NCBI RefSeq assembly: GCF_020621385.1
Contig: NZ_JAESVA010000005.1
Span: 124,001 to 188,000, forward strand
Reading direction: 5' to 3'
Length of the DNA: 64,000 bases
DNA from: Acidisoma cellulosilyticum
Lineage (GTDB): Bacteria; Pseudomonadota; Alphaproteobacteria; Acetobacterales; Acetobacteraceae
Positions 22,165-45,514 of the stretch are shown piece by piece. Position 1 is the first letter of the stretch. Each line of letters starts with the position of its first letter. The notes below the pieces were generated by a model that was not told where the DNA came from, ran no database searches, and was given only the letters and a program-made list of their open reading frames with translations. The position numbers and the translations under genes are program-made.

Positions 22165-22254
22165 TCTGCCCTCAATCGGCGTTTGTCTCTACAAACCGGC
22201 TCAGGAGAGCAGATCCTGAACCCACCGAGGCACCCCGCCCGGTGTGAATGCGTC

Positions 22255-22435
22255 GACGCCTGTCGATGGCAGGTCTCCTGGCTCACGGGTCTTTGTCCAA
22301 CATCGCCTTCCCGGGTCACCCCAGTGGCATTTTGACGAAGGACTCGCCGCTTACAGTTGCGGGGGCAGCCGTGGCATTGGGCTCGCCGCCCGCACCACAT
22401 TCCCGTTTAATCCCCTCTCGGGGAACCATCTCCTC
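22255..22435 (-). ncRNA. Cobalamin riboswitch
   Basis: On the minus strand the leader contains GCTGCCCCCGCAACTGTAAG, a CCACTGGGGTGACCCGGGAAGG segment in two parts, and the B12 box AGCCAGGAGACCTGCC at 22283-22268. These are the conserved core elements of the cobalamin (AdoCbl) aptamer in the right order. The riboswitch ends about 90 bases before the permease start. Confidence 0.95.
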
Positions 22436-22790
22436 CGGCTTAGCCGGAAAGACGCGATCGTCGCAAGCGGCAGGTCAGCCATCATCAGCCATCAAAAGAA
22501 AAGGCTCCGGCATTGCCGAGGCCTTTCATCAGTCCGGTGAGGACGGTTAGCGCCAAGCGAGCTTCGGGCTTAGGCGCGGACGATCCAGACGGCCGGGAAA
22601 TCAGACGGCACTTCGTTGATCGGCGGCAGGATCGCGGCCACCACAACGACGGCGACGAAGTCGGAGAGATGAGATGCTGCTATTTTCGAAAAATGAGTCC
22701 GCGGTGAGTTCGGGCGACGAACCCACTAGTCACTGTCGAACTTATTTAGGGAAAATCCACCACATAACCCAATCAAATCCGAGGGCTACG
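22436..22790. other. 355-bp stretch between riboswitch and tRNA-Ala
   Basis: No convincing reading frame. It should hold the promoter of the riboswitch RNA and the 3' flank of the tRNA-Ala gene. Nothing else recognised. Confidence 0.5.
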
Positions 22791-27317: not shown

Positions 27318-27410
27318 GGAGGGGTGGCCGAGTGGCTGAAGGCGGCGGTTTGCTAAACCGTTGTACAGGGTCAACCTGTACCGTGAGTTCGAATCTCATC
27401 CCCTCCGCCA
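27318..27410 (+). tRNA. tRNA-Ser (anticodon GCT); phage attachment gene
   Basis: 93 bases with an encoded CCA and the long variable arm of class II tRNA. Anticodon GCT in GGTTTGCTAAACC. The integrase gene ends 107 bases downstream and faces the tRNA, so the 3' part of the tRNA is the likely attachment core. Confidence 0.97.
27385..27410. other. Probable attL core in tRNA-Ser 3' end
   Basis: Inferred from the position of the integrase next to the tRNA-Ser 3' end and the sharp change of base composition. The right copy would restore or repeat this stretch beyond the window, so the exact core cannot be set here. Confidence 0.55.
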
Positions 27411-27458
27411 ATTATCTGCACCTTTGGAAAGTGCGCACAGGCCGTTTACAACGGTTTT

Positions 27459-27516
27459 TGCTACACCTGTGACACCTTCTGCTACACCCCCACACCGTTT
27501 GCCACACCCCCACACC
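27459..27516. repeat. Direct repeats next to attL, possible integrase arm sites
   Basis: TGCTACACC (27459), TGTGACACC (27468), then two near-identical 17-bp units, TGCTACACCCCCACACC (27480) and TGCCACACCCCCACACC (27500), 20 bp apart, ending at the integrase stop. Position and spacing fit arm-type binding sites. Confidence 0.6.
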
Positions 27517-28707
27517 CTACTTCAGAGCGGCCGGAAGAGACCCGAAAAGGTCAGTCCGACGCCCGTATTGCCGATGGGCGCCCATCCCCCGTAGGAATCG
27601 GGTGTATTTCTCGGTGGTCTTGATCGAGCTGTGCCCCAAATGCTCAGATAGACGATAAAGGCATGTGTCATCGTCGAGGACCGACGCGATTGCGAACGAG
27701 TGTCTAAAATCGTGGATGCGGAATTTCTGCAGAGTCTCCGGATCCCGCCCCTCATCAGCGGCTGATTTTTCTTCGCGCCCCTGCCGCTGGCGCCGCCATT
27801 GTCCGTAACGCGTGCTGACCACGGCGCTATCTGCGTGAAGACGCGCGAACAAGCGCCCACGCTTCGGAAGCACTGGAAGCAGTTCAGCCGCTCGACCTAA
27901 ATTAATTATCCGGGTCTTGAGGCCATCCCTGTTGCGCTTTACGCCTCGGATGAGGGTCGCCCTAACCACATCGGGGTGGATATCCTCGGCATGCAGATGG
28001 AGAGCCTCAGCCAAGCGCATACCGGTCTCGCGTAGGAACCGAAACAGCGTCGCCATATCTGCGCTCCACTCAGCGACCTCGTCGATGAGGGCCTGGGCCT
28101 GCTCGTCGGTCGGGGGATCTAAGTCGTCGACAGTCGTTCCCACAAACATATCCCGATCGAATGTCTTCGCGACATTCTGCTCAACCCAGCCCGAAACCAC
28201 GGCGAACTGCAACGCGCGGCTCATCGCCGTGAGGTCGTTCAAAATTGTCGATGTCGACCGTCCTTCTTCGAACCTGGCCTTGGAGTAGTCCTTTAGTGTG
28301 CCAACTGTGATGGCTGACAGAGGCACCGGCGGGAACACACCGTTCTCGTCTGGATCACCGGCGAGTGCCAGCGTGAGCTGCACTAAGCTCACCCCGTAGC
28401 GCTGGACCGTCTTTTCAGATAGCGAGCGATTAGCAACAAGCTGCTTTGTGTGGTCAAGGTAGCCATTCACGGCATCCTGCCAAGTTTTCTCGGCCTCGCG
28501 GACGATGCCACTTCTGAGCGCCTTGTTCTCCTTCAGGATTTTGTCGCGCGCACGCCTCGCCGCTTTGACATCAGCAGTGCCAAGGGACTGGAGCTGGGGC
28601 TTTCCCCCGAGCTTAAAGCGGACGTACCATGTCGACCCGCGAAGCTGGAGGTTGTGATTCGGGTCGGCGGACGGACCTTTAGCGGGCTGGATGAGGGGCG
28701 GGGGCAT
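27517..28707 (-). CDS. Prophage integrase (tyrosine recombinase)
   Basis: 396 residues. The N-terminal arm-binding part has HNLQLRGSTWYVRFKLGGK, the core-binding domain runs at about 75-175, and the catalytic domain has Arg231 (ETGMRLAEALHL), His332 and Arg335 (IHDFRHSFA), His359 (LGHSS) and Tyr368 (TTEKYTRF). It should integrate the phage into the adjacent tRNA-Ser. Its start lies inside the end of the upstream excisionase-like gene. Confidence 0.95.
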   Translation of the reverse strand: MPPPLIQPAKGPSADPNHNLQLRGSTWYVRFKLGGKPQLQSLGTADVKAARRARDKILKENKALRSGIVREAEKTWQDAVNGYLDHTKQLVANRSLSEKTVQRYGVSLVQLTLALAGDPDENGVFPPVPLSAITVGTLKDYSKARFEEGRSTSTILNDLTAMSRALQFAVVSGWVEQNVAKTFDRDMFVGTTVDDLDPPTDEQAQALIDEVAEWSADMATLFRFLRETGMRLAEALHLHAEDIHPDVVRATLIRGVKRNRDGLKTRIINLGRAAELLPVLPKRGRLFARLHADSAVVSTRYGQWRRQRQGREEKSAADEGRDPETLQKFRIHDFRHSFAIASVLDDDTCLYRLSEHLGHSSIKTTEKYTRFLRGMGAHRQYGRRTDLFGSLPAALK

Positions 28708-35922: not shown

Positions 35923-36096
35923 TCTGCATACTTTGTTGACATGACTACAAAATATTGCAAACCTATGCGCGTTTTGCTTGCGATCGGCGGTGGCTTGTAT
36001 CACTATTAGTGTCAAGTCACAGGAATGTGGCGCAATAAAAAGATCCGGATCATCGCGATTGGCGTCGCTCCCCGGATCTTAGCGCAGGAGTTTATT

Positions 36097-38748
36097 ATGT
36101 CCGATACCCAAAAATTTGTCAATACATCTGCATCCATCGGAATCGATGAGGGTGTAGAGTTACTCAACGGCATGAGCGAAAGCGTGTTCGCCGGTGTGGC
36201 TCAGAATATGGTCGACCTGGGCTGGTCGATATTCCCACAAATGACGTCTGGCGAGCGTCGCCTCCCGGGCAAAATCGATGGCGGGGTTATAAAGTGGAAG
36301 GAGGATTACAATCTCTCTTTGGTCCGCCCGACACAAGATTTTCTCGACAGATGCATTTATCAGTGCGCATCACTGAACGTCGCGACCGTTTTTGGTCCCG
36401 CAAGCGGAAATACCTTCGCGGTTGATATCGATGTGCTAGATGAAAAACTTGCAGACGAGGTCGCCGAAATCGCCGAGGAAATCCTTGGCGATACTCCATT
36501 TGTCAGAGTCGGAAACAAACCAAAGCTCGCTCTTATTTATCGGCATGCTGAAGACGATGTTGTGGCTAGTGTGTCTCGCCGCCTTGCGGACGAAGAAGGT
36601 ATGCCGTCTCAACATGGTCTTGAAATCCTCGGCGCCGGAAAGTTGCTTACCTTCCACGGCCGCCATCACAAGACAGGCCAGTATTTCAAATGGACTGGAT
36701 TGGCGACACCACTTTTGGACGGCCCAGAAAAGGCACTTCTGGTAACGTCAGCACAGGTTGTCGATTTCCTTGCAGCCGTCGATACGAAGCTTGGATTTGC
36801 TCAGGCGCAGGTAATCAAGGCAAATTTTTCCTGGACCGAGGGAGAAGAGGGCGAAGTCCGCACCGCGATCATCGACACCGGTGTGAGTGGCAGACTGACC
36901 GACGGCCGCGAGGAATACCTGGGCAAGCTGGTTTGGGCGATGGTATGTGCCAACTCGCAGGAAATCTGTGCGGCGCGAGACCTTGGTGATGATGCTCTCC
37001 GGCCATTGTTGGCTGGTGTGTGCCAGGCGGTTTTCGATGAATTTGTTGTCAAGGCTGAGGCGAGTGGGCGCTGGGAGCCAAAGATGCTTCGGCAGGAAAT
37101 TAGATCTCGTGTTGCTCGGGCGGCAGCAAAGGTTGAGCCGCCTCGTCCGAGGATGATCGCAAGCGGGGCATCTAAGAGCCATTTAGACTCCGACCTGCCG
37201 ATCATCGAAATCGTGACTGGTGATGTAGAAAGCGCAGCAAATGCGGCCGAGCTAGCCCTGGTCGCCTCGGGTAGGGGCATCTATCAGCGTGGCGGTGCAA
37301 TCGTGAGCATCGGGGAAACCTGGTCGCACACGGCGTCTGGACGCGAAGTATCGACTCAGAGGATCTTCCCGGTCGGTGAGCATGCCCTGGTCGAACACCT
37401 ATCCGCCTCTGCGATCTGGATGAAATATGATGCCCGAAGCAAAGGGATGGCACGAACCTCGGCGCCGATGTGGATCGCGCAGACGCTCATGGATCGCAAA
37501 GGCCGCCTAGGACTTCCAGTGCTCTCGGGCGTAGTGGGGGCTCCCACGCTTCGCGGCGATGGCAGCATCCTGGATCAGCCTGGCTTCGACGAGACTACTG
37601 GGCTCCTTCTAGATCACCGCGGCGTTCAGTTTCCTGAGGTGCCTCAGGCGCCATCGCGTGATGATGCCTTGGTCGCTCTGGGGGCCCTGAAGGCGTTAAT
37701 TAAGGATTTCCCGTTTGTAGCGAACGCTGATCGCTCGGTGGCCCTTTCTATGCTGTTGACAGCATGCGTAAGGCGTTCTCTCCGTACGGCTCCTCTCCAT
37801 GCTTTCTCGGCACCAACCGCAGGAACGGGTAAATCCAAACTGGTCGATATCGCCTCAATCCTTGCCACGGGTCGTGAGGCTGGCGTTTTAGCGCAAGGCA
37901 AAACAGACGAGGAAACCGAAAAGCGCCTGGCATCCGCACTCATCGCGGGCGACCAAATCATCACACTCGATAACTGCGTTCTCCCTGTTGATGGCGACCT
38001 TCTTTGCCAGATGCTGACCCAATCGACCGTCCGCCCCAGGATCCTTGGTCGGTCTGAGACGCCGGATATCCCAGCATCAGCTCTGATGGCCGCCACCGGC
38101 AACAGCCTCATAATCGCCGGTGATGTTACGCGCCGCGCTATCTACTGCAGTCTAGATGCTAAGGTTGAGCGTCCCGAGGATCGGGAATTCGACATCGATG
38201 TTATCGCCGAGACAAAAAAACGCAGGCCAGAACTGGTTGTTGCCGCACTTACAGTTCTGAGAGCGTTCATTGTGGAGGGTAGCCCGAAGCAGAAGAATCC
38301 ATTGGGCTCATTTGAAGACTGGAGCCGCACGGTCCGCGACGCTCTCGTTTGGGCCGGTGAAGCAGACCCATGCGAAACCATGGTAAGGATGCGCGAACTG
38401 GATCCAAAACTGGAGGCGCTGACAGCAGTTCTGTCGGGATGGGCAAAGGCTCTCAACGACAATCGGGTCACAACAAGTGCCATCGTCGAAGCTGCGACGG
38501 CCCAGGCCCACAATGAAGATGGCCAGATCGTATTTCGGAATCCTGAGTTGAGGTCGGCTCTTATGTCCGTGGCCTCAGCCGGATCGTCATCGGCGCTGAG
38601 TGCTCGCTCCCTTGGGAGGTGGCTTGGAGCCAACGCTGATCGGCGTGTCGGAGGCCTCCGCATCGTGAGGCTGGGTCTTTTGGATGGATCTCCGACCTGG
38701 AGGCTGGAGTCTGATGAGCCCGGTATCCTCGGACCAGCGAATTGGTAA
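36097..38748 (+). CDS. Phage primase-polymerase/helicase
   Basis: 883 residues from the ATG with GCAGGAGTTT upstream. The N-terminal prim-pol domain has the DxD metal motif VDIDVLD at about 109-115 and HGLEILGAGKLLTFHGRHHKTG near 195. The C-terminal part is an ATPase with Walker A APTAGTGKS (572-580), an acidic ITLDN Walker B-like motif near 624 and ATGNSLIIAGDVTRRAI as a sensor-like segment. It should prime and unwind phage DNA. The repeat region right after it is a likely origin. Confidence 0.85.
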   Translation: MSDTQKFVNTSASIGIDEGVELLNGMSESVFAGVAQNMVDLGWSIFPQMTSGERRLPGKIDGGVIKWKEDYNLSLVRPTQDFLDRCIYQCASLNVATVFGPASGNTFAVDIDVLDEKLADEVAEIAEEILGDTPFVRVGNKPKLALIYRHAEDDVVASVSRRLADEEGMPSQHGLEILGAGKLLTFHGRHHKTGQYFKWTGLATPLLDGPEKALLVTSAQVVDFLAAVDTKLGFAQAQVIKANFSWTEGEEGEVRTAIIDTGVSGRLTDGREEYLGKLVWAMVCANSQEICAARDLGDDALRPLLAGVCQAVFDEFVVKAEASGRWEPKMLRQEIRSRVARAAAKVEPPRPRMIASGASKSHLDSDLPIIEIVTGDVESAANAAELALVASGRGIYQRGGAIVSIGETWSHTASGREVSTQRIFPVGEHALVEHLSASAIWMKYDARSKGMARTSAPMWIAQTLMDRKGRLGLPVLSGVVGAPTLRGDGSILDQPGFDETTGLLLDHRGVQFPEVPQAPSRDDALVALGALKALIKDFPFVANADRSVALSMLLTACVRRSLRTAPLHAFSAPTAGTGKSKLVDIASILATGREAGVLAQGKTDEETEKRLASALIAGDQIITLDNCVLPVDGDLLCQMLTQSTVRPRILGRSETPDIPASALMAATGNSLIIAGDVTRRAIYCSLDAKVERPEDREFDIDVIAETKKRRPELVVAALTVLRAFIVEGSPKQKNPLGSFEDWSRTVRDALVWAGEADPCETMVRMRELDPKLEALTAVLSGWAKALNDNRVTTSAIVEAATAQAHNEDGQIVFRNPELRSALMSVASAGSSSALSARSLGRWLGANADRRVGGLRIVRLGLLDGSPTWRLESDEPGILGPANW

Positions 38749-38774: not shown

Positions 38775-38803
38775 AAGGCTCACTCTCAAAAGGGGTGGGC
38801 CTT
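38775..38803 (+). terminator. Terminator of the primase-helicase gene
   Basis: AAGGCTCACTC, seven-base loop, GGGTGGGCCTT, an 11-bp stem with two G-U pairs, followed by CTTCTTTT. Confidence 0.7.
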
Positions 38804-38851
38804 CTTCTTTTGGTGGTCGCTTCCCACGGAAAGGATGGTTCAAGAGGTCAT

Positions 38852-38996
38852 GTCAACAGATTAGGTGGGTTAAGTGGGTTAAGTGGGGTAGTTTCGGAGA
38901 GATTGCTGAAAGTGTCACAGATAGTAGTCTGACAGTTTTCCGTGGGGTATCAGAAATAGCCCCCTATAACCCACTTAACCCACCTAATCTGTTTAC
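38852..38996. repeat. Origin-like palindromic unit 1
   Basis: Left arm 38852-38881 (begins GTCAACAGATTAGGTGGG) and right arm 38967-38996, 30 bases each, 29 pairing. The 85-base centre holds a second imperfect inverted repeat (GAAAGTGTCACAGA / TCTGACAGTTTTC). A folded single strand would form one long hairpin. Confidence 0.85.
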
Positions 38997-39070
38997 ACAC
39001 CCGTGGGATGGGTGGTGATTCTTCTTTTTACAGGTCGTTTTCCTTCGAAAAGGGTGTTCAAGATATCCTT

Positions 39071-39215
39071 GTCAACAGATTAGGTGGGTTAAGTGGGTTA
39101 AGTGGGGTAGTTTCGGAGAGATTACTGAAAGTGTCACAGATAGTAGTCTGACAGTTTTCCGTGGGGTATCAGAAATAACCCCCTATAACCCACTTAACCC
39201 ACCTAATTTGTTTAC
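39071..39215. repeat. Origin-like palindromic unit 2
   Basis: The same 145-base structure, 219 bases downstream of unit 1, with arms 39071-39100 and 39186-39215. The flanks (TTCTTCTTTT and GGTTCAAGA/GTGTTCAAGA) are also repeated, so the whole 219-bp unit is tandemly duplicated and partly continues into a third copy after 39215. Candidate replication origin of the phage. Confidence 0.85.
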
Positions 39216-39345
39216 ACATCCCGTGGCAGGGGTGGGTGATTCATTTACATGCATCAGAATAGTATACCGGTGAAATAAAAGGCGCGACTTCCTTGCTTTT
39301 TAGTCCTCGCGTGTGTGCACAATACAAATACGGGAGGACTACAAC

Positions 39346-39753: not shown

Positions 39754-40023
39754 ATGTCCAAAGCTTTCCTAGCTCAAGTGATCCAAGAATCACTCGAAAC
39801 CACGGGCGTCGCAGCCAATCGAGCGGCCGCCGATGTAATCGATGCTATCGTGAAGGAACTAAAAAAGGAAGGCGGCTTCACCCTGCCAAGCTTCGGCACC
39901 TTCACCGTGAAGAAGACCAAAGCGCGCAAGGCTCTCAATCCCCGCACCGGCGAGCCTGTGAAGGTGAAGGCTAGTAAGACCGTGCGGTTTAAGGCGTCGC
40001 CCTCGCTGAAGACGGCGGTCTGA
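39754..40023 (+). CDS. HU-like DNA-binding protein
   Basis: 89 residues: MSKAFLAQVIQESLETTGVA, GGFTLPSFGTFTVKKTKARKALNPRTGEPVKV and the beta-arm pattern of HU/IHF proteins, including the NPRTGE turn. Bends and compacts DNA. A phage copy next to the candidate origin may assist initiation or integration. Confidence 0.92.
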   Translation: MSKAFLAQVIQESLETTGVAANRAAADVIDAIVKELKKEGGFTLPSFGTFTVKKTKARKALNPRTGEPVKVKASKTVRFKASPSLKTAV

Positions 40024-43504: not shown

Positions 43505-45514
43505 ATGACTACGAAAACACGTTCGATCGGTAAACGTCGGCCGCCGAGCACTCTGCATGCAGCTCTGGAAGCTGCGAAAGCGCGGCCGACCATTGTGCAG
43601 GGCTATGATGAATGCGGCGACCCGCTCGATGTAAGCTCAACACAGAAACCGGATATCCGAGAAGCGGCTGCGACCATGATGGTGATGGACGCGCTGACTG
43701 ATAGGGATATCGAGCGCATCCGGATGCTGGATTCGTGTGTTGTTATTGAGTGCGAGGTCGCTTGGGAGAAGTGGCTTTCTGAGCCGATCTGGAATCTTGT
43801 TGACAAGGAGATTTCGCGACTCAATGTGATTCCTTCGTCTAAAGCTGACATCCCACCCGAGGATCGCCTGAGGAGTTTTCCGGAAACGACGGTTGTTCTG
43901 TGCCGCAATATCGAGGAGATCGCTCCGGAATATGCTGGAGCTTACGATGTCCGACTCAGGATTTCTGGACTTAGCGCAGATCAACTCAAGCGTCTCATCG
44001 GAACCTCGCCTATCATCGAACGCGAGCTCACGGATGAGATTGCTCTCTCTGTGAGTGCTGTCCGGCTCTTTATGTCGGCGCACAAGGAGGCATCGGGTGA
44101 GGCGATTTTCCAAAAGTTGCTCACGATTTACGCGGCCGAGAAGGGTGTGACTTCTAAAAGCGCAGTGAGCCACAAGTCGAAGAGCAAACCATACCTTGAT
44201 CTCGACTACATTCACGGCATGCCGGAAGCAGTAAAATGGGGTCGCGATCTGGCCGAGGATATCCGGGCTTATAAAGCGGGTCAGCTTGACTGGTCGGACG
44301 TTGATCCTGGTGTGCTAATCGGTGGTCCGCCTGGCACCGGGAAAACCATTTTCGCCCAGGCTCTCGCAGAAAGCTGTGGAATTCCGTTGATCGCGACTTC
44401 CTATGGCGCTTGGGGGAGAGCTGGTCATCAAGGCGAAGTTCTCAAAGCTATGCGTGCAGATTTCAAACGAGCCAGGGAATCCGCGCCATGCATTCTTTTC
44501 ATTGATGAACTGGATTCCATTCAAAGCCGAGGAAACTCAAAGAGAAGTGATGACTGGTGGTCGACAATCGTAAATGCCCTACTGGCTGAACTCGATGGCG
44601 CCGAAGCTCGTGATGGTGTTGTCGTGGTCGCGGCGTCTAACTATCCGGACAAGGTCGACCCCGCCATCCGGCGTGCCGGTCGATTAGATCGCGTGATCAA
44701 GATTGGTCTGCCAGATCGTGTTGCGCTGGCTAAAATCCTGCGCGACCATTGCTACGAGTCTGACGTAGATTTCGATCGGATTGCTCAACGCATGGTCGGC
44801 AAAACAGGTGCGGATTGTAAGGCCCTAGCTCGCACTGCAGGTCGGAGAGCGCGACGTGAAAAGCGCGAACTGAAAACTGAAGATTTCCTGCAGGAATTGA
44901 AGTCATCGCAAAAACCGAGAGCTCCCGAACTTCAATACAGGATTGCAATTCATGAAGCGGGCCATGCTCTGCTTGGGAGTCTTCAAGGGTCGCTGCATTC
45001 TGTGTCGATTCTGAGTTCGGGTATCACGTCGGGTGGCGCAATTTTCGATGACCGATCTGCAGGTAGCGTTCGAGACATCGACGACATGATTCGTGACTGG
45101 CTTGCTGGACGTGCTGCTGAGGAAGCCATTCTTGGCAGGGTTACAATCGGAAGTGCTGGCCATGCGTCAAGCGACCTGGGATTGGCGACGGTTTTCGCAG
45201 CGAGTTTGGAAACCGAGTGGTGTGTGGGTGACTCCGGTTTGAGCTGGCGAGGCGAAGTGAACCAACACAATATCGGAAATCTACTTGCCATGAATCGCGA
45301 TGTTGCGGGTCGTGTTGAAGCTCGGCTGCAGAGACTCTATTCGGAGGCTTTGGAAATCGTCCGGCATCGGAGTAACGCGGTCGTCGCGATTGCAGAGGTT
45401 CTTATGGATCGAGAAATCCTGGATGGGCATGAGGTCGCTGAGATTATCCGGATCAACAAGCCCATCATGGTTTCGAAGAGAGCTAAGGCGACTGACGTGA
45501 TGGGCATGCACTGA
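43505..45514 (+). CDS. Soluble FtsH-like AAA+ zinc protease
   Basis: 669 residues. AAA+ module: Walker A GGPPGTGKT (273-281), pore loop around AWG (302-304), Walker B ILFIDELDS (330-338), second region of homology with NYPDKVDPAIRRAGRLDR (379-396). M41-type peptidase: zinc site AIHEAGHAL (His483, Glu484, His487), third ligand Asp558 in SAGHASSDLGLAT. Unlike cellular FtsH, the N-terminal 230 residues have no membrane segments, so it should be cytoplasmic. The N-terminal domain is unrecognised and may choose substrates. Coupled to the next two genes. Confidence 0.88.
   Translation: MTTKTRSIGKRRPPSTLHAALEAAKARPTIVQGYDECGDPLDVSSTQKPDIREAAATMMVMDALTDRDIERIRMLDSCVVIECEVAWEKWLSEPIWNLVDKEISRLNVIPSSKADIPPEDRLRSFPETTVVLCRNIEEIAPEYAGAYDVRLRISGLSADQLKRLIGTSPIIERELTDEIALSVSAVRLFMSAHKEASGEAIFQKLLTIYAAEKGVTSKSAVSHKSKSKPYLDLDYIHGMPEAVKWGRDLAEDIRAYKAGQLDWSDVDPGVLIGGPPGTGKTIFAQALAESCGIPLIATSYGAWGRAGHQGEVLKAMRADFKRARESAPCILFIDELDSIQSRGNSKRSDDWWSTIVNALLAELDGAEARDGVVVVAASNYPDKVDPAIRRAGRLDRVIKIGLPDRVALAKILRDHCYESDVDFDRIAQRMVGKTGADCKALARTAGRRARREKRELKTEDFLQELKSSQKPRAPELQYRIAIHEAGHALLGSLQGSLHSVSILSSGITSGGAIFDDRSAGSVRDIDDMIRDWLAGRAAEEAILGRVTIGSAGHASSDLGLATVFAASLETEWCVGDSGLSWRGEVNQHNIGNLLAMNRDVAGRVEARLQRLYSEALEIVRHRSNAVVAIAEVLMDREILDGHEVAEIIRINKPIMVSKRAKATDVMGMH

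Follow-up and report, generated by a model that had tools for sequence, protein, structure and literature searches.

A tandemly doubled array of inverted 9-bp iterons behind a primase-helicase gene as the probable replication origin of an Acidisoma prophage

The analysed DNA (64,000 nucleotides, hereafter the window) includes a prophage in which a 907-aa gene and an HU-like gene enclose an inverted-repeat unit of 152 nt in two direct copies. The question raised by this locus is what such a doubled and highly symmetrical element is for. The copies, located at 38851-39002 and 39070-39221, are 97% identical and follow each other at a spacing of 219, which agrees with the two near-identical tandem units of the preliminary description. 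In copy 1, a centre of 85 bases is flanked by arms (38852-38881 and 38967-38996) of which 29 of 30 positions can pair, also as described; in copy 2, it is 28 of 30. The position given earlier, after a primase-helicase gene and before HU, was likewise confirmed: the upstream gene occupies 36025-38748, and the HU/IHF-like gene at 39754-40023 on the plus strand matches PF00216 (E 1.7e-23). The first arm of copy 1 starts 104 nt past the stop codon of the upstream gene, with 103 nt in between. A partial third unit had also been reported, and this has to be withdrawn. Self-blastn revealed that the duplicated segment extends beyond the hairpin, copy 1 covering 38793-39021 and copy 2 39010-39242 on the plus strand with 89% identity. 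Because the repeat is longer than the hairpin, the trailing sequence is the tail of copy 2. No second place for the element was found in the 6.0-Mb genome.

The arms possess an internal organisation which the earlier description missed. The window iteron is TTARGTGGG, a 9-bp sequence, and three direct repeats of it face three others across a spacer. Each left arm reads TTAGGTGGG TTAAGTGGG TTAAGTGGG, and the right arms read the same in reverse with a degenerate inner unit. The left iterons of copy 1, of 9 bp each, lie at 38861-38887 on the plus strand, where the repeat detector described below gave a spacing of 9 and a score of 26 out of 27, and the inverted right iterons at 38961-38987 on the minus strand; in copy 2 they are found at 39080-39106 (plus) and 39180-39206 (minus). 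Since the arms consist of tandem 9-bp repeats, the sequence suggests that the "giant inverted repeat" reads better as inverted iteron arrays than as a hairpin. The spacer of copy 1 (38888-38960) may be the melting region; its core (38889-38958) has 41% GC, compared with 52% for the prophage stretch. In the Rhodobacterales-type relatives the spacers have 53-63% GC, i.e., they are not AT-rich. The spacers also enclose an inner inverted motif, AAGTGTCA ... TGACAGTT at 38910-38937 in copy 1 and its counterpart at 39129-39156 in copy 2. The pattern NTGTCR..YGACAN, picked after looking, occurred in 31 of 42 centres, about half of them from close Rhodobacterales-type relatives, and in 4 of 840 shuffled ones. 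The inner TGTCA..TGACA persists in these 31 spacers while the iterons vary, and it is perhaps a priming site or a site for a second protein.

The outer edges of the units are marked by a further sequence, GTCAACAGATTAG, which stands at 38852-38864 on the plus strand of copy 1 and recurs at 39071-39083, with GTAAACARATTAG on the minus strand at 38984-38996 and 39203-39215. The TTAG of GTCAACAGATTAG overlaps the first iteron. The preliminary description had noticed GTCAACA(A/G)ATTAG elsewhere in the phage, and rightly so: exactly four copies exist genome-wide, all of them in the prophage, and two are the left outer edges of the units. As judged from its sequence, GTCAACAGATTAG is a possible regulator site. 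The shorter form GT[AC]AACA[AG]A was counted 21 times in the prophage stretch (27500-64000) and not once in the host stretch (1-27500); 15 of the 21 copies lie outside the listed ORFs, which leave 23% of the prophage stretch uncovered, and four copies are the outer edges of the origin units. These copies look like scattered phage regulator sites, and in this they resemble mycobacteriophage stoperators.

The gene in front of the units (P0001, 36025-38748, plus strand) encodes a 907-aa protein with a Prim-Pol-like N-terminus, a predicted SF3-type helicase and a predicted C-terminal winged helix. No Pfam match above the cut-off was obtained, the Prim-Pol match (E 0.011) falling under it, and the PHROG matches were phrog_29234 (E 1e-175) and phrog_1156, DNA primase (E 5e-8). 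The full-length AlphaFold2 model was set aside as too poor (pLDDT 49.6). The model of aa 390-907, made with 57 sequences, reached pLDDT 93.8 and pTM 0.89; its structural matches were SF3 helicases, with E values around 1e-6 but low TM-scores (0.3-0.4). The matched structures are ASFV PrimPol, MPXV E5, NrS-1 and PriRep1 with dsDNA (7pds, presumably from a SaPI). On the basis of this model, an SF3 helicase fold is predicted for the C-terminal half; the terminal winged helix is predicted from the secondary structure and the sequence pattern. Among the relatives, the C-terminal helicase/winged-helix module is common and the N-termini vary, with Prim-Pol matches in some and none in the 576-aa frame of locus L057. 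In three loci (L035, L038 and L046) a PRK07078-like, TOPRIM-looking N-terminus replaces Prim-Pol and the same origin type lies downstream; these are natural primase swaps on one helicase/winged-helix module. The inverted-iteron layout goes with the C-terminal helicase/winged-helix module and not with one type of N-terminus.

DNA-level matches to the units were absent from the phage collection, and among 60 genomes (own included) they were confined to the own genome; therefore, homologues were sought via the protein. The 700 nt 3' of each homologous gene were scanned by a detector that requires a pair of neighbouring direct units of 8-11 bp and, 20-200 bp beyond them, an inverted partner, the maximum score being 27. 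The threshold of 22 was fixed after the first set had been seen, and a held-out set was scored at the unchanged setting. The first set comprised 7 genome contigs, 14 viral contigs, 30 order-level loci (30 loci were taken from 105 matching genomes), 14 class-level loci and 4 plasmid loci, minus 6 that were too short. Dropped were the loci with less than 150 nt downstream (L007, L062, L067, L070, L073 and L074), one without a hit (L075) and three comparators. With the window included and duplicates kept, 38 of 63 loci scored at least 22, a score that shuffles attained in 2 of 189 cases and other stretches of the same loci in 5 of 258; at 24 or more, the values were 29/63, 0/189 and 0/258. Without three duplicates and the window, 34 of 59 loci remained at the lower and 26 of 59 at the higher score. 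The spacing among the 35 distinct passes was 9 bp in 32, 10 bp in two and 8 bp in one. The held-out set was drawn from IMG/VR and counted 60 loci, which were left of 79 new ones after removal of 12 already present in the first set, 3 repeated within the set itself and 4 whose 3' end was too short. It gave 52/60 at ≥22 against 6/238 stretches elsewhere in the same loci, and 40/60 against 0/238 at ≥24; the winning spacing among the 52 passes was 9 bp in 42, 10 bp in 8 and 8 bp in 2. At least one of these passes, in L094 at 453 nt past the stop, looks like chance. Below the threshold within the 700 nt were 25 of 63 first-set loci (9 distant class-level ones and 16 others) and 8 of 60 held-out loci. 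Of eight additional records from plasmids and phages, five reached 22 and L078, L082 and L083 failed. Over both sets and with the window counted, 87 of 120 distinct loci had the element 3' of the gene; the loci are related, and therefore these counts are not independent.

The iterons vary widely from one element to another (AAGTGCCTT, GGTGGGTTT, TTGGTGAGC and GGTTGGGGAT are examples), and the arms of one element agree. The layout is also found 3' of the primase gene on two small plasmids, the 6.5-kb Psychrobacter plasmid pA32H2 (spacing 10) and the 12.6-kb Methylobacterium plasmid pMNOD06 (spacing 8), where, as far as their incomplete gene tables tell, the primase gene is the only evident replication gene. 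Nothing relevant on pA32H2 or pCM32 was found in the literature.

Taken together, the window element is very probably the replication origin of the prophage, present in two tandem copies and acted on by the initiator encoded upstream. The preliminary description had preferred a phage replication origin, and this preference is supported because the position and the layout recur behind homologous initiator genes and because footprints and replication assays have been published for a distant homologue, in the accessible part of the pWTY27 report (PMC3583192). The anatomy, the recurrence, the 9-bp period, the absence of RNA-type covariation and the predicted SF3 fold were computed here. The best reading is a replication origin of the self-loading-helicase type, by which the element joins a kind of origin that is already known. 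It has the features of an inverted-iteron SF3 Rep origin: a 3' position, inverted sets of direct repeats, an AT-richer spacer, and a predicted SF3 helicase with a winged helix. The GC skew of the prophage stretch showed no turn at 39 kb, its minimum lying at 32.5 kb and its maximum at 51.7 kb.

The strongest competitor of this reading supposes that the initiator recognises an extruded stem-loop (cruciform) and not the sequence of the arms, as has been proposed for pRN1 and pWTY27. The folding that the preliminary description had recommended as a check speaks for it, as copy 1 is far more stable than its shuffled versions (−81 vs −41.2 ± 3.9 kcal/mol as RNA, z −10.3, reached by 0 of 200 shuffles; z −9.9 as DNA and −9.5 as minus-strand RNA). 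In pRN1, a change in the stem that stopped replication was rescued only by a change in the opposite arm which restored symmetry (PMC4234260, in the part available), and a folded form of the origin is proposed by the pWTY27 authors too (PMC3583192). Against it stands an internal period of the arms. Arms were selected by inverted repetition alone and their internal periods measured afterwards, so that the test is not circular. The lag-9 identity was 0.551 vs 0.331 after shuffling (z 8.4) for 19 distinct arm types of the first set, which include the comparators pRN1, BPP-1 and P4 and of which L044, L048, L049 and L071 are probably false; for the 22 held-out arm types it was 0.533 vs 0.328 (z 8.0). 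Lag 10 ranked second in both tests (z 3.6 and 5.1). Such a 9-bp period is needless for a stem. Moreover, unpaired arm positions are kept in the relatives (alignment columns 98/257 in 12 of 14 and columns 113/242 in 11 of 14), and the covariation check suggested earlier revealed none in the arms of the 14 relatives, since 90.1% of positions paired vs 89.6% after shuffling and 148 of 500 shuffles reached the observed score. In SCCmec, the binding of Cch2 was abolished by deletion of the direct repeats and kept after deletion of inverted repeats, according to the available text of PMC7581432. Recognition of a cruciform is therefore unlikely, and the pattern of the arms fits inverted protein-binding sites better than a stem, as far as sequence can tell.

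The other option of the preliminary description was a structured non-coding RNA, to which a long terminator hairpin ending the replication operon may be added. Its attractions are the strong fold on both strands, the position just after a gene, and an 84-pair RNAalifold structure of the 14 relatives in which seven pairs are kept through two-sided changes in some sequence. None of the seven, however, belongs to the iteron arms, and covariation accounts for only −1.55 of −99 kcal/mol. G-U pairs were not in excess among the arm mismatches (19 GT/TG, 29 AC/CA and 94 other in 46 arm pairs), nor among those of the held-out arms (7 GT/TG, 19 AC/CA and 51 other in 22 arm pairs), and no Rfam family matched the units at the gathering threshold. 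Because arm covariation is absent and G-U is not in excess, the RNA reading is disfavoured; with the missing Rfam match, the structured RNA was rejected, and an RNA or terminator function is highly improbable. A packaging start site, a partition site or a cluster of regulator sites in place of an origin deserves equally little credence. Packaging genes do lie within about 2 kb of the element in an Azospirillum prophage and in BPP-1, and the outer edges bear the phage-specific 13-mer that is found elsewhere in the prophage too. Against this, the two small plasmids with the same layout have no phage structural gene listed in their incomplete tables, and the equivalent stretch of pWTY27 is reported to be required for replication and bound by Rep (PMC3583192, in part).

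For the replication origin as the preferred reading, a mechanism can be outlined. The binding of iterons, the need for replication and the bidirectional mode would follow published homologues and analogues, and P0001 itself presumably acts at the units of the window. Its product, with a Prim-Pol-like primase, an SF3-type ring helicase and a winged helix, would bind the TTARGTGGG iterons, and the helicase may be loaded there as a ring. Since the three iterons of each side face each other, two helicase assemblies would be placed head to head. These would open the spacer that separates them, the primase part would prime both strands, and by analogy the forks would depart in both directions. The two copies of the unit might provide redundancy or a higher local dose of the initiator. 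Thereby, for an initiator that lacks a match above the Pfam cut-off, the origin becomes predictable from sequence. As each element has its own iteron, comparisons between relatives could locate the part of an SF3 initiator that reads the origin. The winged helix was tried as the part that tracks the iteron sequence and was not supported (partial correlation 0.03 over 50 loci); the partial correlation of iteron similarity with the ATPase core was 0.23 over the same number of loci.

The doubling itself is rare. Among 43 loci (40 of the family and 3 comparators), all of which had been picked as positive or near-positive, a second copy was seen only in the window and in P4, that is, in one of the 40 family loci (the window), and in none of the 60 held-out loci. 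Two copies are not needed in general because doubling is absent from the other family loci tested, and our guess is that they serve redundancy or dosage control.

Other features of the window were also recorded. At 27318-28707, a tRNA-Ser(gct) adjoins an integrase of phage type, encoded on the minus strand; this is a possible attachment site. The prophage gene at 43505-45514 has AAA and peptidase M41 (FtsH-like) domains, and a cobalamin riboswitch lies in the host part on the minus strand at 22251-22445.

Among known systems, the Streptomyces plasmid pWTY27 is a distant homologue, as its RepA shares 29% identity with aa 494-824 of P0001 (E 1e-27). Like the window, it has a helicase-type Rep whose gene is directly followed by short repeats in inverted arrays. 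In the accessible part of the report (PMC3583192), replication depends on, and is restored by, 300 bp of non-coding DNA 3' of repA. RepA binds this DNA specifically, its footprints covering both arms of the GTGGGAAC inverted repeat and leaving the loop open; a 149-bp piece spanning the footprinted repeat failed to restore replication, and bidirectional replication was inferred. The detector, applied to pWTY27, lands on this footprinted GTGGGAAC repeat with a 9-bp spacing. Unlike the window, pWTY27 is a plasmid and not a phage, has a separate primase gene (repB) and three inverted repeats, and tandem doubling of one unit is not among the features described in that part of PMC3583192. In SCCmec, Cch2 is a helicase of the self-loading type whose C-terminal domain binds AAGTG iterons immediately past the end of the gene (PMC7581432, in part), so that short direct repeats just behind the gene are shared with the window. 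The differences are a separate primase-polymerase and inverted repeats that are dispensable for binding (PMC7581432). Three 5-nt iterons in 23 bp are, by arithmetic, what a 9-bp spacing yields.

The PICI/SaPI Rep-ori resembles the window in that the origin stands immediately 3' of pri-rep. Two iteron sets flank an AT-rich stretch, the cloned replicon is functional, and the organisation is stated to be unmatched by other known bacterial replicons, in the part of PMC6092414 available. PICIs are without phage structural genes, whereas the prophage of the window has terminase, portal, capsid and sheath genes. The closest parallel to the doubling is crr of P4, whose annotation shows a pair of 120-bp direct repeats right behind the 3' end of the alpha (primase-helicase) gene. 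As in the window, two tandem direct copies with inverted iterons adjoin a primase-helicase gene; the iterons of crr are 9 and 18 bp apart and part of them are inverted, and its detector score was only 20.0, under the threshold. The type I iteron of P4 is of the GGTGAACA type, in contrast to TTARGTGGG in the window, an additional ori of P4 lies about 4.5 kb from crr, and the alpha primase is of the TOPRIM type, unlike that of the window (PMC4234260, in part).

The archaeal plasmid pRN1 and the phage BPP-1/BIP-1 share with the window an AEP primase, an SF3 helicase and a winged helix, with an inverted repeat 3' of the gene (PMC4234260 and PMC3869888, in their available parts). Their helicases match D5_N and DUF5906, and P0001 does not. 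The pRN1 origin was published as a stem-loop without iterons, an inverted repeat of about 100 bp 3' of the gene which is necessary for replication and to which specific binding was not seen (PMC4234260, in part). In its loop, the few single substitutions that had been tried were tolerated, but every one of eight 3-bp deletions within a 24-bp stretch was not (PMC3869888, in part). Conservation of the stem by compensatory change, as expected of the pRN1 type, was not found in the 14 relatives of the window, to which that test was confined. The pRN1 stem is TTATGTCCATAGTGTCCAACT, in which TGTCCA occurs twice, 9 bp apart. A similar protein was found in eight plasmid records, and the five that belong to the pRN family were examined. 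The sequences of their stems are not alike; at lag 9, the left arms had an identity of 0.48 vs 0.28 after shuffling, a value reached by 0 of 5000 shuffles (2 of 5000 when any lag from 4 to 12 was allowed). Lag 9 was the top lag in four of the five stems and second in pRN2, and it was weak in pSSVx (0.29). These plasmids are related and therefore do not represent five independent cases. The protein of BPP-1 matches 927 phage records, and all three that were examined (BPP-1, Acinetobacter phage 4316 and mycobacteriophage Urkel) have 9-bp repeats in the arms, with a lag-9 identity of 0.85-0.90; in BPP-1 they sit 466 nt past the stop. No report of iterons in pRN stems was found in the open-licence literature, outside which most subscription journals lie, and the available part of PMC3869888 has no mention of "direct repeat".

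These likenesses suggest a broader proposition, for and against which we see the chances evenly balanced. One grammar, 9-bp iterons inverted around a spacer 3' of the gene, may serve the winged-helix SF3 initiators of phages and plasmids in at least two bacterial phyla and of archaeal pRN plasmids; the archaeal "stem-loop origins" would then be inverted iterons, and the doubling in the window an invention parallel to crr of P4. If this grammar is true, the pRN1 loop would tolerate substitutions and not 3-bp deletions because of the phasing between two bound arrays. Against iterons in pRN1 speak the stem change that was rescued by restored symmetry and the lack of specific binding. The published work on pRN1 and BPP-1 leaves open how their "stem-loop" origins are recognised, and for these the iteron view would offer an explanation based on sequence.
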